DNA from: Acidobacteriaceae bacterium
GTDB taxonomy: Bacteria; Acidobacteriota; Terriglobia; Terriglobales; Acidobacteriaceae
Assembly (NCBI GenBank): GCA_003134855.1
Contig: PLCS01000008.1
Coordinates: 124,001-188,000 of the forward strand
Reading direction: 5' to 3'
Length of the DNA stretch: 64,000 bases
A model generated the notes under the pieces. That model did no database searches and had not been told where the DNA came from. It saw only the letters and a list, made by a program, of their open reading frames with translations. Below, one piece after another: positions 36,817-46,495 of the stretch; within the stretch, counting starts at the first letter, position 1, and each line of letters starts with the position of its first letter. The position numbers and the translations under genes are program-made.

Positions 36817-37023
36817 TGATGGATTTGGAAATGAGGCTGAAAATCGGCCCGGAAAACAAAATTGAGGAAAAACAGGGTTGAAAAGATAAGCGAAGCCTTA
36901 TATTGTTGAGCCATTGCGGGAATGGGCGGCTCCGGGGCTTCCGGCGCCGCTTCCGCCGATTTGTATTAGTACGCTATTCAATTGCGTCCACCCCCCCCCA
37001 CGTAGAAGGCAGGAGATCGGCAC

Positions 37024-37323
37024 ATGGAGAACAAGCCGGCACAAAACATTCAGGACACGTTCCTGAACACGGTCCGCAAGGACAAAACACCCATTACGGT
37101 ATATCTGGTGAGCGGCGTCAAGCTCACGGGAAAGATCCGCTCCTTCGACAAGTATTCCGTGCTTCTGGAGAACAACAGCCAGGAGCAGTTGATCTTCAAG
37201 CACGCCATCTCGACCGTGGTGAGCAACCGCGGCGTGATGCACAGCGAGTTCCACGCGGGGCTAGGCACCGTTCATGGTCCGATACCAGTGGCCCCGCCGA
37301 CCTCGATAGGGGAGCCGCGATAG
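37024..37323 (+). CDS. hfq: RNA chaperone Hfq
   Basis: 99 residues. The Sm1 motif (about 8-50, with [20 protein letters not shown] and [14 protein letters not shown]) is followed by the Sm2 signature FKHAIST (58-64), where His and Lys contribute to U-rich RNA binding; the usual Tyr before KH is Phe here. Hfq forms a hexameric ring that pairs small RNAs with mRNAs. The C-terminal tail is short and Pro-rich. It is followed eight bases later by hflX, the classical hfq-hflX arrangement. Confidence 0.97.
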
Positions 37324-37331
37324 CAGGCCCG

Positions 37332-38810
37332 ATGCGCTCCCGGTTAGCCGGCGAGGCGAGCCGGACCGGCGGCTCCGGAGGAGCTGCTGAGCGAGCGGTC
37401 CTTGTGGGAGTGGACCTCGGAGTCCGCTCTCGCGGCAACCGCGCAGCCCAGACGGGTGCGCGGCAAGCGGTGGTGTGCGCGGAGCCGGACGGCGCTGATT
37501 TTGCGGATGCGCCGGAGTCCGCCGATCTTCCTTTTGCAGAGATTTTGCCGGGCAGAGCGGCTCTGGCGCGTTCCTCGACGGAACTGGACGCGGAGGAGTC
37601 ACTCGCCGAGTTTCGCGAACTGGTGGCGAGCGCCGGCGGCGTGGTGGTGGGCGAGATCATGCAGCGCCGCGCGCGCCCCGATCCGGCCACGCTAATCGGC
37701 TCCGGCAAGGTGGAGGAGATTCGCGGCGTTGCCGCCTCCACCGAGGCCGATCTGGTGCTCTTCGACCACGACCTGACGCCGACGCAACTGCGCAATCTGG
37801 AGGCCGCGCTGCCCTGCCGTGTGCTGGACCGCACGCAGTTGATTCTGGACATCTTTGCCCGCCACGCCCGCACCAGCGAGGGGCAGTTACAGGTGGAGCT
37901 GGCGCAGCTAGACTACCTACTGCCGCGGCTGAGCGGCAAGGGCAAGGCCATGTCGCAGCTTGGCGGCGGCATCGGCACGCGCGGACCGGGCGAAACCAAG
38001 CTGGAGACCGATCGCCGCCAGATCCAGCGCCGCATCGACCACTTGAAGCTGGAAGTGGAATCGGTGCGCCGGGTGCGCAAGCAGCAACGGCAGCGGCGCG
38101 AGTCGGTCCCGGTGCCCACGGTGGCCCTGGTCGGCTACACCAACGCCGGCAAGAGCACGCTCTTCAATCAACTGACAGGCGCGCAGGTCTTGCAGTCGGC
38201 GAAGATGTTCGCCACGCTGGACCCAAAGCTGCGGGCGATCGAACTGCCCAGCCGGCGGAAGGTGCTGCTTTCGGACACGGTCGGCTTCATTCGCAACCTG
38301 CCGCACACGCTGGTGACCAGCTTTCGCGCCACGCTGGAAGAGGTGGCGCAGGCTGAGGTGCTGCTGCACATCCGCGATGCGAACTCGACCTATGGCGAGG
38401 AGCAGAAGACGCAGGTCGAGCGGGTTCTGGGTGAACTGGATTGCCTCGCCAAGCCGCGCATCGAGGTGCTGAACAAGATTGACCTGCTGGGCGAGCACGA
38501 GCGGCAGGGTTTGCTGGAGCGGAGCGCGGCGGGGGCCGAGGTGGCCGTTTCGGCGCGCACCGGCGAGGGGATGGAGGCGCTGCTGGCGGCGATTGATCGC
38601 GCGCTGCACTCCGACCCGCAGCTCACCGCCGAACTACGCGTTCCGCAGCAGGAGGGCGCGGTGCTGGCGGCCATCGAGGCGGGCATGGTTGTGCATAGCC
38701 GCGAGTACGAAGGGAATCTGGTGCGACTGACGGTCAGCGGTCCGGCGTCGCTGATCGGGCGGCTGCGGCAGTTCCGGATGCGGGACGAGAGCGCTAAGGA
38801 GACTCCATGA
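37332..38810 (+). CDS. hflX: GTPase HflX
   Basis: 492 residues from the ATG at 37332, eight bases after the hfq stop; an upstream extension in the same frame would only overlap hfq. After an N-terminal HflX domain (about 75-250, with [16 protein letters not shown] and the Gly-rich [12 protein letters not shown] loop) comes the G domain: G1 GYTNAGKST (268-276), G3 DTVGF and G4 NKID. HflX binds the large ribosomal subunit and splits stalled ribosomes under stress. The first 65 residues are an Arg/Ala/Gly-rich extension not typical of the family. Its stop overlaps the next start (ATGA). Confidence 0.93.
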
Positions 38811-39364
38811 ACCCCGCCGAAGACCGCGCCATTACCACGCTCAGTAGCCGCGAGGTCTATCGCAACCACTGGATGATCTTGCGCGAGGACGAGATTCTGC
38901 GCTCCAACGGCGAACGGGGCGTCTACGGCGTGGTGGAGAAGGAGGACGCGGCGATCATCCTGCCCATCGACCGGGGGCGCGTCTGGCTGGTAGAGCAGTT
39001 TCGCTACACCATCGGGGAGCGGGCGCTGGAGCTGCCCCAGGGCGGCTGGGAGATGGAAGTCGAAGATCCCGAAGAGCTGGCGCGCGGCGAACTCAAAGAG
39101 GAGACCGGCCTGGCAGCCGCGCGGATGACCTGCCTGGGATGGCTGTGGATTGCCTACGGCTTCACGCGGCAGAGGCAGCACGTCTTTCTCGCCACCGGGC
39201 TGACTGAGAGTGAGAAGACCCCCGACGTCGAGGAGCACGACCTCGTCGTCCGCTCCTTCGCCGTGGAGGAGTTCGAGGGGATGATGCGCAATGGCGTGAT
39301 TCGCGACAATGGCACGCTGTCGGCGTGGGGGTTGTATCTGCTTTGGAAGGTAAAACAGGGATGA
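38807..39364 (+). CDS. NUDIX hydrolase, ADP-ribose pyrophosphatase-like
   Basis: 185 residues, translationally coupled to hflX by a four-base overlap. The Nudix box lies at about 79-102 (GGWEMEV ... [13 protein letters not shown]): the catalytic Glu residues are kept, but the Arg of the consensus RE pair is Gly, with an Arg one position earlier. [20 protein letters not shown] before the box fits the ADP-sugar pyrophosphatase group, which cleaves ADP-ribose to AMP and ribose 5-phosphate. The exact substrate is not determined. Confidence 0.85.
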
Positions 39365-43414: not shown

Positions 43415-43645
43415 CTAGGCTGTGCTGGGCACGGCGTCCCGGAGACGGATAACCGCATCCGCCTGGGCGCCTTTCTGCCCCTGGACGATGTCGAACTCAA
43501 CGTCATCGCCCTCTTTCAGCGTTTTGTACCCGTCCAACTGAATCGATGAGTAGTGAACGAATACATCCGGCCCGTCTTCACGCCCAATGAATCCGTAGCC
43601 CTTGGCGTTGTTGAACCACTTGACCTTCCCTTTGTATTGAGCCAC
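43415..43645 (-). CDS. Cold-shock domain protein
   Basis: 76 residues, a single OB-fold. RNP1 is KGYGFI and RNP2 is VFVHY; the basic N-terminal [12 protein letters not shown] and the central [15 protein letters not shown] loops fit CspA-family proteins, which bind single-stranded RNA/DNA and melt RNA structure. The C-terminal extension ([10 protein letters not shown]) is longer than in E. coli CspA. The gene stands alone. Confidence 0.93.
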
Positions 43646-43774: not shown

Positions 43775-43808
43775 AGGCAGAGCCGGCGGAGGAGTGCCGG
43801 CCCTGCCT
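43775..43808 (-). terminator. Terminator of the H1-tailed NUDIX gene
   Basis: AGGCAG-a-GCCGGC (43775-43787) pairs with GCCGGC-c-CTGCCT (43796-43808), 12 paired bases with one mismatch. On the minus strand it is followed by CCTTTTGC. It lies 39 bases past the stop. Confidence 0.65.
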
Positions 43809-43846: not shown

Positions 43847-44668
43847 CTACTTGCCGTGCTTGCCGGCCATCTTGTGCGCGAACAAGAGCACGCTGGTCAG
43901 CGTCTTGCCGTCCAGTATCGCGCCCTTCTCGATCAGCTTGACCACCTGGGAGAGTTTGACCAGGCGAAACTCGATCCGCTCGTCGTCCTCCGGATGGGCG
44001 TCGCCCGCCACCAGGCCCTCGGCCACGAAGACCTTCATCGACTCGCCGAGAAAGCCGGGGCTGGGATAGTACTCGACCAGAGGCTTCCACTTCTTTGCCC
44101 GGTAGCCGGTTTCCTCCTCCAACTCCCGCTGGGCGCCTTGCAGGGCGTCCTCGCCCGGATCCAGCTTGCCGGCCGGCAGCTCCCACAGGAATCGGCCGGC
44201 GGCATGGCGATACTGCCGCTCGATTACGACCCATGGATTTTTCTTGCTTTTCGTGTTGTCGATAGCCAGGATGACTACACTGCCGTGGTGGCGGACGACG
44301 TCGCGCACGCCCTCCCTGCCACCCGGCTCAATCAGCCGGTCGCGCAGCACACGGAAGAGCGGCCCCTCGAAGACCACTTCGGAGCTGAGCAGCTCAGCCT
44401 TTTGCTCCACCGGCGCGTTAGGAGCCTTCGTCGCCTTGGGTTTTGCGGCTTTTGCTCCTTTGGGTTTTGCGGCTTTTTTTGCCTTGGGTTTTGCGGCTTT
44501 TGCGGCCTTGGGCTTGGTGGCCTTTGCTTTCTTTGGTTTCGCGGCCTTTGCGATCCTGGGCTTGGCAGCTTTTGCTTTCTTAGGTTTTACTGCCGTTGCA
44601 ATCTCGTGCGCCGCAGCTTCTGCGGTCATGGGCTCGGCGGCCTTCACGGCTTTCTTGACCTTGGGCAT
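43847..44668 (-). CDS. NUDIX hydrolase with histone-H1-like Lys/Ala/Pro tail
   Basis: 273 residues from the ATG at 44668, chosen because AAGGAGAGAG precedes it; the frame is open 39 codons further up without a ribosome site. Residues about 28-86 are a run of AKPK/AAKP-type repeats, like the C-terminal tail of histone H1 and bacterial H1-like proteins. From about 95 on lies an ADP-ribose-pyrophosphatase-like NUDIX domain with a fully canonical box (GKLDPGEDALQGAQRE, then LEEETGY; about 167-189) and the upstream WVVIERQYRHAAGRFLWELP strand. The enzyme should hydrolyse ADP-ribose or a related nucleoside diphosphate. The tail would bind DNA or another polyanion (inference). Confidence 0.85.
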   Translation of the reverse strand: MPKVKKAVKAAEPMTAEAAAHEIATAVKPKKAKAAKPRIAKAAKPKKAKATKPKAAKAAKPKAKKAAKPKGAKAAKPKATKAPNAPVEQKAELLSSEVVFEGPLFRVLRDRLIEPGGREGVRDVVRHHGSVVILAIDNTKSKKNPWVVIERQYRHAAGRFLWELPAGKLDPGEDALQGAQRELEEETGYRAKKWKPLVEYYPSPGFLGESMKVFVAEGLVAGDAHPEDDERIEFRLVKLSQVVKLIEKGAILDGKTLTSVLLFAHKMAGKHGK

Positions 44669-44866
44669 CTCTTCTCTCTCCTTGAAGCGCGTTCCTGCGC
44701 AATTCAGAATAGAGTATACGCACACAACGGCCCGCGCGCCGCACCAGATTCGCCATGCGTGCATCAATTCGCACTGGCGTAACATCTTTAACAGTAGCCG
44801 AATCCCGTTTTTGCCCCTGCGCTTGGGATTCGCTATCAGATTTAAGATCGTATAGAGAGTAAGTCA

Positions 44867-46495
44867 TTGAACGCAGAGTGCCATCCCATCAGCGTTGTAC
44901 CGGGGCTGCACCGGCTCTTTCTGGAGTACTGCTCCGGCGCGGCGGCGGCGCGGGCGTTTTACGCCCCGTTGCCGCCGGGCACGGACGCGCCGGGGGGCTG
45001 GCAGGCGCGCCCGGACCTGACCCCACAGCGGCCCGCGCACTGGCCGGAGCTGCTCGGGCTGCTGGCCGGGCAGAACACTGAATCAACACAGGCGGCGGCG
45101 CTCGAAGCTCTCGGCGGCGGCGCGGGCGTCTTGGTGACCGGCCAGCAGGTGGGCCTCTTCGGCGGGCCGCTCTTCACGCCCTTCAAGGCGGCCACCGCGC
45201 TGGCCCGCGCGCGCCAGGCGACGGCAGCGGGCCGTCCTCACGCCGCCGTCTTCTGGCTGGCTACCGAAGACCACGACTTTGCCGAGATCAATCACGTCGT
45301 CTTCCCGGCGCGCCGCGAACTGCGCAGGCTGGAGTATTCGGCGGCTCCCGAGGCCGCGCGCCCGGTGGGCGGCCTGGTGCTGGACGACTCGATCAAGCCA
45401 CTGGTCGATCAGGCGTACGAACTGCTCGGAGCTTCCGAGGCAATGGAGGCGTTGGCCGCAGCCTACCAGCCGGGACGCACCTTCGCCCAGGCCTTTGCTG
45501 AGTTTTATTCGCGTGCCTTTGCCGCGCAGGGACTGCTGGTGCTGGATGCAGGCAGCCGCGCCTTTCACCGCATCGGCTCTCCTGTCTTGTGCGCGGCTGT
45601 GGAACGCGCCGACGAGCTGCACGCCGCGCTCGTGGAGCGCAATCAATCGCTCGATGCAGCCGGCTATCATGCGCAGGTAGCCGTTGGGGAGCAATCGAGC
45701 TTGCTCTTCCTCATCGATCAAAGCAGCGGCGCGCGCCTCGCGCTGAAGCGGCTGGCTCCCAGCGCTGCCGAGCCGGCAGGACTGTGGCAGGCGGGGCGGC
45801 ATAGCTTTTCCACGGCGGAGCTTCTTGACATTCTCGACGCCGAGCCGGAGCGCATCTCGCCCTCGGCGCTGCTGCGGCCCGTCTTCCAGGATTTCCTGCT
45901 CTCGACTTCGGAGATCATCGGCGGACCGGCGGAGATTGCCTACTTTGCCCAATCCTCCGTGCTCTACGAACGCATTCTGGGCCGGGTGACGCCGGCGCTG
46001 CCGCGCTTTTCGGCGACGCTGATTGAGCCGGCCATTGGCGACCTGCTGCGCCAGCACAACCTCACGCTGGAGCAGGTCTTTGCCGAGAGCCCGGCCTCGC
46101 TCGGGCAACTGCTGGCTGCCCGCTCGATTCCAGCGGCGGGAAAACGAAATCTGGCGGCGGCCGAGCTTGCGCTGAACGCCGAGTTGATCCCGCTGCTCGA
46201 CTGGATGCATTCGCTCGATGAGGGCCTGGGCCGGTCGGGAGAAACCGCAGCCGGCAAGATCCGCTACCAGATGAGCCGCTTGCGGACTCTGGCGGCCAAC
46301 TTCCAGTTGCAGCGCGAGGACTCGCTCGCGCGCCACGCCGAGTCCATCAGCCAGGCGCTCTATCCCGGCGGCGTCTTGCAGGAGCGGCTGCACGGCGCGG
46401 CGTATTACTTTGCCCGCTACGGTTTTGGGCTGGCGGAAGAGCTGACCGCGCAAGCCGCAAATTGCCGCTCAGGCCATGCGGCGATCTGGCTATAA
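44867..46495 (+). CDS. bshC: Bacillithiol synthase, cysteine-adding enzyme
   Basis: 542 residues, starting at a TTG (44867) after GAGAG. The family core is clear: VTGQQVGLFGGPLFTPFKA and FWLATEDHDFAEINHVVF, then the coiled-coil and C-terminal blocks (QRLHGAAYYFARYGF-like end). BshC joins cysteine to glucosaminyl-malate in the last step of bacillithiol synthesis. Bacillithiol is the low-molecular-weight thiol of Firmicutes, Bacteroidota and acidobacteria. bshA and bshB are not in the window. It is divergent from the H1-tailed NUDIX gene. Confidence 0.92.
   Translation: MNAECHPISVVPGLHRLFLEYCSGAAAARAFYAPLPPGTDAPGGWQARPDLTPQRPAHWPELLGLLAGQNTESTQAAALEALGGGAGVLVTGQQVGLFGGPLFTPFKAATALARARQATAAGRPHAAVFWLATEDHDFAEINHVVFPARRELRRLEYSAAPEAARPVGGLVLDDSIKPLVDQAYELLGASEAMEALAAAYQPGRTFAQAFAEFYSRAFAAQGLLVLDAGSRAFHRIGSPVLCAAVERADELHAALVERNQSLDAAGYHAQVAVGEQSSLLFLIDQSSGARLALKRLAPSAAEPAGLWQAGRHSFSTAELLDILDAEPERISPSALLRPVFQDFLLSTSEIIGGPAEIAYFAQSSVLYERILGRVTPALPRFSATLIEPAIGDLLRQHNLTLEQVFAESPASLGQLLAARSIPAAGKRNLAAAELALNAELIPLLDWMHSLDEGLGRSGETAAGKIRYQMSRLRTLAANFQLQREDSLARHAESISQALYPGGVLQERLHGAAYYFARYGFGLAEELTAQAANCRSGHAAIWL

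Follow-up and report, generated by a model that had tools for sequence, protein, structure and literature searches.

A polycationic, predicted disordered N-terminal tail on an ADP-ribose-type NUDIX hydrolase of Acidobacteriaceae

Introduction

NUDIX enzymes of the ADP-ribose pyrophosphatase (ADPRase) type are usually regarded as diffusing housekeeping proteins. For the NUDIX domain described here, the best match among PDB sequences is Rv1700 of Mycobacterium tuberculosis (1mk1, 5i8u), and the best fold match is a nucleoside diphosphate sugar hydrolase of Bdellovibrio (5c7q; 5c7t with ADP-ribose). However, the alignment with 1mk1 starts at residue 88 of the query and residue 3 of the chain, and therefore nothing in 1mk1 corresponds to the N-terminal tail of our protein. 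The closest curated model is E. coli NudE (NF008736), but the score of 73.9 is below the cut-off of 169, and the same holds for the likewise close model of E. coli YffH-AdpP (TIGR00052; 48.8 versus 79.55), so that the protein belongs to neither family by that rule.

Lysine-rich appendages have been described on other bacterial proteins. Lysine repeats stabilize the actinobacterial topoisomerase I (TopA) on DNA (PMC7398561). As described there, the TopA C-terminal domain resembles the tail studied here in that degenerate, lysine-rich, H1-like repeats are attached to a catalytic core and are longest in one genus. The differences are that the TopA repeats are C-terminal, whereas the NUDIX tail is N-terminal, that TopA is a DNA enzyme, and that an effect on processivity was measured; homology is not claimed. 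In E. coli, YihI and RNase R have lysine-rich regions that bind polyphosphate (PMC12345225), and the binding region of YihI is reported in that study to be disordered and mainly N-terminal. These are other proteins, however, the YihI motifs are PASK or PASK-like, and in their case the binding partner was measured. A further report that names both NUDIX and H1-like proteins (PMC9060813) deals with separate proteins of Burkholderia and not with a fusion. Indeed, no characterized enzyme with a tail of this kind fused to a NUDIX domain was found in the open-access literature, in agreement with the initial annotation of the locus.

The locus lies in a 64,000-nt stretch of DNA (the window) from the genome of a soil bacterium of the Acidobacteriaceae that belongs to a genus group of 80 genomes including Terracidiphilus gabretensis. 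The fusion of a Lys/Ala/Pro tail to a NUDIX domain, as initially annotated, is real, and its coordinates and strand were exact. The gene occupies positions 43847..44668 of the minus strand, stop included (ATG at 44668, stop ending at 43847), and encodes 273 aa. Codons 1–86 (44411..44668) specify the polycationic tail (27 K, 30 A, 11 P; net charge +25), which is predicted to be disordered, and residues 87–273 (43850..44410) comprise the ADP-ribose-type NUDIX domain and a short basic C-terminus. It is the only full-length match in its own genome; the two further matches are partial or distant, namely a NUDIX paralogue with 30% identity and a 34-residue match to the box.

As the best explanation we propose, with the balance about even, that the tail is a non-specific electrostatic tether that holds an ADP-ribose-family NUDIX hydrolase near polyanions. 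An ADP-ribose-family NUDIX pyrophosphatase would have gained a disordered, polylysine-type N-terminal tail in the Acidobacteriaceae, most strongly in this genus. The tail would be kept for its charge and flexibility and not for its sequence, and would tether the enzyme to DNA, to RNA or ribosomes, or to polyphosphate. Tethering would raise the local enzyme concentration at the polyanion, in a mode comparable to that of the lysine repeats that hold actinobacterial topoisomerase I on DNA; the published precedents (TopA; YihI, RNase R) support this proposal. The computed evidence covers the context of the start codon, the composition and selective constraint of the tail, its distribution over lineages, and the predicted fold and disorder; tethering, its partner, and the substrate are inferred. 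Two of the three alternatives discussed below, docking to RNA and to the nucleoid, are special cases of tethering, and thus the probabilities that we assign to tethering and to its alternatives overlap.

Results and discussion

The NUDIX domain

The NUDIX profile PF00293 matched at 5.3e-19, with 69 bits versus a Pfam gathering cut-off of 21.1, which places the domain in the superfamily. The Nudix box (consensus Gx5Ex7REUxEExGU) is intact at residues 167–189 (44102..44170, minus strand), so that the catalytic box is complete, as had been claimed. It reads G167-x5-E173-x7-R181-E182-L-x-E185-E186-T-G188-Y, and an alignment of 23 sequences, window included, shows no variation in its key letters. 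Likewise invariant in this alignment is P204 in the motif SPGF (residues 203–206), 15 residues past the box; a proline about 15–16 residues after the box is a signature of the ADP-ribose pyrophosphatase subfamily. By sequence as well as by fold, the nearest solved relatives are either ADP-ribose pyrophosphatases or nucleoside diphosphate sugar hydrolases: 1mk1 matched at 4.4e-26, and the domain predicted by AlphaFold2 matched best to 5c7q and 5c7t (31 and 30% identity), which are ADP-ribose-type NUDIX structures. The best NCBIfam models were NudE (1.1e-20) and YffH-AdpP (6.1e-13). All 22 NCBIfam models listed, including those for ADPRase and NudE, score below their curated cut-offs, and therefore the label "ADP-ribose-type" is used loosely here and the substrate is deduced from the family. 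With this qualification, the annotated ADP-ribose-type assignment fits both sequence and fold, and the substrates are probably ADP-ribose or related ADP compounds. The net charge of the domain (residues 87–273) is 0.

Translation and constraint of the tail

A 6-base Shine-Dalgarno (SD) match, AAGGAG, is located at 44678..44683 of the minus strand, 9 bases 5' of the ATG. The tail is constrained although it changes more rapidly than the domain, a pattern to be expected where composition is what is maintained. Of 13 species pairs, 12 yielded a dN/dS for the tail, and all 12 values were below 1 (0.04–0.65), a rough estimate given the few codons and the indel-prone repeat alignments; for L028/L029, one of these 12 pairs, the start taken by rule moreover probably lies too far downstream. 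The corresponding values for the domain were 0.025–0.17 across the 13 species pairs. In three species pairs the dS of the tail was more than twice that of the domain, which suggests misalignment or repeat turnover.

Given the Shine-Dalgarno match of the ATG and a dN/dS below 1, the tail is very probably translated. A start downstream of the tail, against which the annotation had to be weighed, was rejected for three reasons: an SD match precedes the ATG, starts throughout the genus are basic and ATG-led, and the dN/dS is below 1; apparently, translation does not begin there. Inside the tail there are in-frame start codons, e.g., ATG (residue 14) and GTG (residue 87), and such internal starts could give rise to short forms.

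Composition, disorder, and repeat structure of the tail

The AKPK/AAKP stretch at residues 27–84 (44417..44590, minus strand) contains 23 K, 20 A, and 8 P, which together make up 51 of its 58 residues. Among 47,818 overlapping 58-residue stretches from all six frames of the window, only 57 contain at least 14 K and at least 37 K+A+P, thresholds picked after the tail had been seen, and all 57 lie in the tail. In the AlphaFold2 prediction, residues 1–90 have a pLDDT of about 50 and lack secondary structure, and the domain folds; the alignment used comprised the window and 22 of the 30 named loci (omitting L169, L183, L187, L188, L190, L191, L192, and L193). A tail predicted to be disordered, next to a domain folded like ADP-ribose NUDIX enzymes, supports tethering. 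The annotated degenerate tandem repeat in the DNA of the tail was recovered at 44433–44588, with a period of either 24 (6.5 copies, 74% match) or 48 (3.2 copies, 79%).

The tail has the Lys/Ala/Pro-rich, predicted-disordered composition of H1-like proteins. None of the histone-type Pfam models, linker histone and Hc1 included, matched at E<=1, the only Pfam matches to the tailed protein at this level being NUDIX and a sub-threshold Cornifin. Therefore, the likeness to H1 is one of composition only, and the description of the tail as typical of H1-like proteins went too far, all the more as most tails in the genus are lysine-rich but lack the AKPK repeat.

In composition the tail is also like the lysine repeats of TopA, whose site of action is DNA, and this likeness favours the possibility, raised in the initial annotation, that the tail places ADP-ribose hydrolysis on the nucleoid, where sirtuin or repair chemistry would free ADP-ribose. 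The genome does encode a SIR2 gene and a macrodomain gene, but both are located outside the window and belong to common families (present in 10 and 8 of 14 control genomes, respectively), and no DNA-repair or NAD-consuming gene is found among the annotated neighbours. We therefore consider a function specifically at the nucleoid rather doubtful.

With the tail as the query, its own genome yielded no other significant match (next E value 0.36), so that the tail was rejected as a copy of a repeated genomic element. The motifs AKPKA and KAAKxK have 7 and 13 matches in the genome versus 4 and 6 for the reversed control, and 2 and 4 of these matches lie within the tail. Other lysine-rich frames are present in the genome, and such tails may thus be easily gained. 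One is a repeat frame of about 500 residues rich in Ala, Pro, Lys, and Glu (L263:1462-3015, minus strand) that ends in an H1-like Lys/Ala/Pro region, close to an ORF that resembles a NusG-type factor. Another is a 92-residue ORF (L273:1414-1692, minus strand) whose central part is of the Lys/Ala/Pro type and whose C-terminal stretch is basic; it had no Pfam match at E<=0.01. A third is a short lysine-rich peptide (L272).

Distribution of the tail across relatives

The genus set comprised 70 intact orthologues from 69 of the 80 genomes, one genome having two; among the other 11 genomes were one truncated locus (L163, dropped), one partial locus at a contig end, eight weak matches, and one without any match. 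Starts were assigned as the ATG with the best SD match, and three (L110, L100, L032) were corrected by eye before counting. A basic N-terminal extension was found in all 70 loci, with lengths of 9–107 residues (median 36.5) and net charges of +3 to +45 (median +11). Two stricter rules were also applied: with the nearest ATG that has an SD, the median length was 34.5 residues and 68 of the 70 loci still reached +3, and with the nearest ATG of any kind the values were 34 residues and 67 loci; this consistency supports tethering. An SD match of at least 4 was present in 66/70 loci, a figure that is partly circular because the rule selects the ATG by its SD match. Correction of six starts that later appeared doubtful (L112, L151, L034, L067, L028, and L029) lowered the median length to 35.5 residues and left all 70 loci at +3 or above. 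The genome with two tailed orthologues, G173, carries them on different contigs (L110, L125), representing either a paralogue or a mixed bin.

Outside of the genus the tail fades. For the rest of the family, 87 loci were obtained from 117 genomes, the remaining genomes having no match or mostly weaker matches; the query included the tail, and thus the genomes left out probably have shorter tails. The medians of these 87 loci were 14 residues and +4, and 55 reached +3, with four loci (L070, L081, L089, L090) scored as length 0 because they had no usable ATG. As outgroups, 40 of 152 genomes from other families of the class were hand-picked across families among the matches listed, of which one without a start codon (L232) was excluded. 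In the remaining 39 loci, the medians were 2 residues and a charge of 0; three reached +3, and none had a tail of at least 20 residues. The fall of the medians from genus to family to class, in length as well as in charge, also supports tethering. Orthologues that lack the tail entirely, as considered in the initial annotation, thus do exist, but outside the genus. Among six loci from other members of the phylum, chosen for long frames or early match starts, the AKPK tail was absent; one of them (L275) has an Arg-rich stretch upstream that is putatively N-terminal.

Short-tail genes are judged poorly by the start rule, because many of them have no SD. By eye, many short-tail orthologues without an SD (in loci L042–L088) share a similar short upstream sequence that reads YIV or YSV before the Met and could be the −10 promoter box of leaderless mRNAs.

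Within the genus, four or more KP pairs occur in nine of the 70 loci, six of which belong to the clade of the window. This clade has nine members (support 91) with tails of 58–107 residues. In a FastTree phylogeny of 155 rows (L089 and L090 omitted), long tails of at least 55 residues are clustered, requiring 11 changes versus a mean of 20 and a minimum of 17 in 300 label shuffles. Together with the distribution over family and genus, this clustering indicates that the tail was probably added within the Acidobacteriaceae and was lengthened most in the window's clade of nine. The tail is thus a lineage-specific feature of variable length that was added to an older enzyme, and the combination of a dN/dS below 1 with a tail length that follows the tree supports tethering. 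The predicted variability was indeed observed: besides the range across the genus, the tail of the window has 86 residues, and those of its two closest relatives have 91 and 62. The tails of the 69 genomes form a natural series in which to ask whether ADP-ribose metabolism sits on nucleic acid in bacteria, and by what route a long-established enzyme acquires a low-complexity tether.

Many family members start with short basic sequences such as MPKKK or MAKKK. These starts, the degenerate DNA repeat, and the wide variation in length between close species are all compatible with a tail that has little or no specific function: lysine-rich early codons would aid translation or solubility, and in one clade a basic start, being tolerated, would have grown longer by slippage of the repeat. 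Effects on initiation, however, need just the first few codons and not 30–107, the positive charge is kept in 67–70 of the 70 loci of the genus, the exact number varying with the start rule, and the dN/dS of the tail is below 1. On this evidence, a tail without specific function appears somewhat improbable to us.

The cold-shock and bshC neighbourhood

Downstream of the NUDIX gene and on the same strand lies a gene for a cold-shock domain protein (43415..43645, minus strand; PF00313, 7.4e-29). A same-strand cold-shock gene is found downstream in all 77 family loci with enough flanking sequence (L004–L032, 29/29; L093–L120, 28/28; L194–L213, 20/20), in L120 about 0.8 kb further away than usual; this constant, nucleic-acid-binding neighbour supports tethering and makes RNA as likely a partner as DNA. 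Among the 30 named loci, some of which are from the same genomes as the family loci, 23 have the neighbour, and it is absent in 7/7 of the most distant ones, one of which is a stray Legionella match. Of the 40 class outgroup loci, 19 have it, distributed over families as 5/6 (f4), 0/9 (f5), 10/16 (f6), 0/4 (f7), 0/1 (f9), 1/1 (f10), 1/1 (f11), and 2/2 (f13). In four of these 19 it is not directly adjacent (about 1.1 kb away in L238 and both f13 loci, about 2 kb in L235). The neighbour is equally constant beside family members with very short tails, e.g., 5–8 residues. Since 19/40 outgroup loci have the neighbour and 0/39 have a tail of at least 20 residues, the pairing of the two genes is, as far as these comparisons go, older than the tail. 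The tail was therefore rejected as the cause of the pairing, which occurs where the tail does not.

Between the two genes, just 3' of the NUDIX stop, a 13-bp hairpin with a short T run (43775..43808, minus strand) forms a possible terminator. The z value was −2.86 for a 96-base stretch, and a consensus terminator scan did not list the hairpin. A GC hairpin is common to the window and its two nearest relatives, but a conserved terminator between the genes was rejected, as 10 of 30 genus loci have no perfect stem of at least 5. Because of the hairpin, co-transcription of the NUDIX and cold-shock genes is uncertain.

The shared neighbourhood in the family and in about half of the outgroup loci raises the possibility that the tail brings the enzyme to RNA or ribosomes, where it would remove ADP-ribose- or NAD-type caps or clear ADP-ribose in connection with the cold-shock protein. 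However, the possible terminator separates the two genes in the window, the neighbour is no less constant where the tail is minimal or absent and is missing from the more distant named loci, and RNA pyrophosphohydrolase models match the NUDIX domain weakly. Docking specifically to RNA or ribosomes is thus tentative and, in our judgment, on the unlikely side. A more specific version, in which the gene pair, retained in all sampled Acidobacteriaceae, would couple the cold-shock protein with an ADP-ribose or ADP-cap hydrolase whose evolving polycationic tail anchors it to RNA, to ribosomes, or to the nucleoid, appears unlikely; if true, it would represent a spatially targeted bacterial system for ADP-ribose or cap removal that has not yet been described.

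Tethering in the general sense, toward any of these polyanions, also has evidence against it: the cold-shock neighbour stands beside very short tails as well, the C-terminal 12 residues of the enzyme are already basic in the class outgroups (median +3), the dN/dS values are rough, and the genome has other lysine-rich frames.

On the other side of the NUDIX gene, bshC (bacillithiol synthesis; 44867..46495, plus strand; PF10079, 1.4e-59) is located upstream in divergent orientation. This arrangement is present in 25/29 and 27/28 loci, but in only 2/20 of the more distant ones.

A second NUDIX gene of the window (38807–39364, plus strand) is tail-less. It overlaps by 4 bases with the end of the ORF at 36903–38810 (plus strand), which from its motifs is presumably the GTPase HflX, and this overlap suggests translational coupling.
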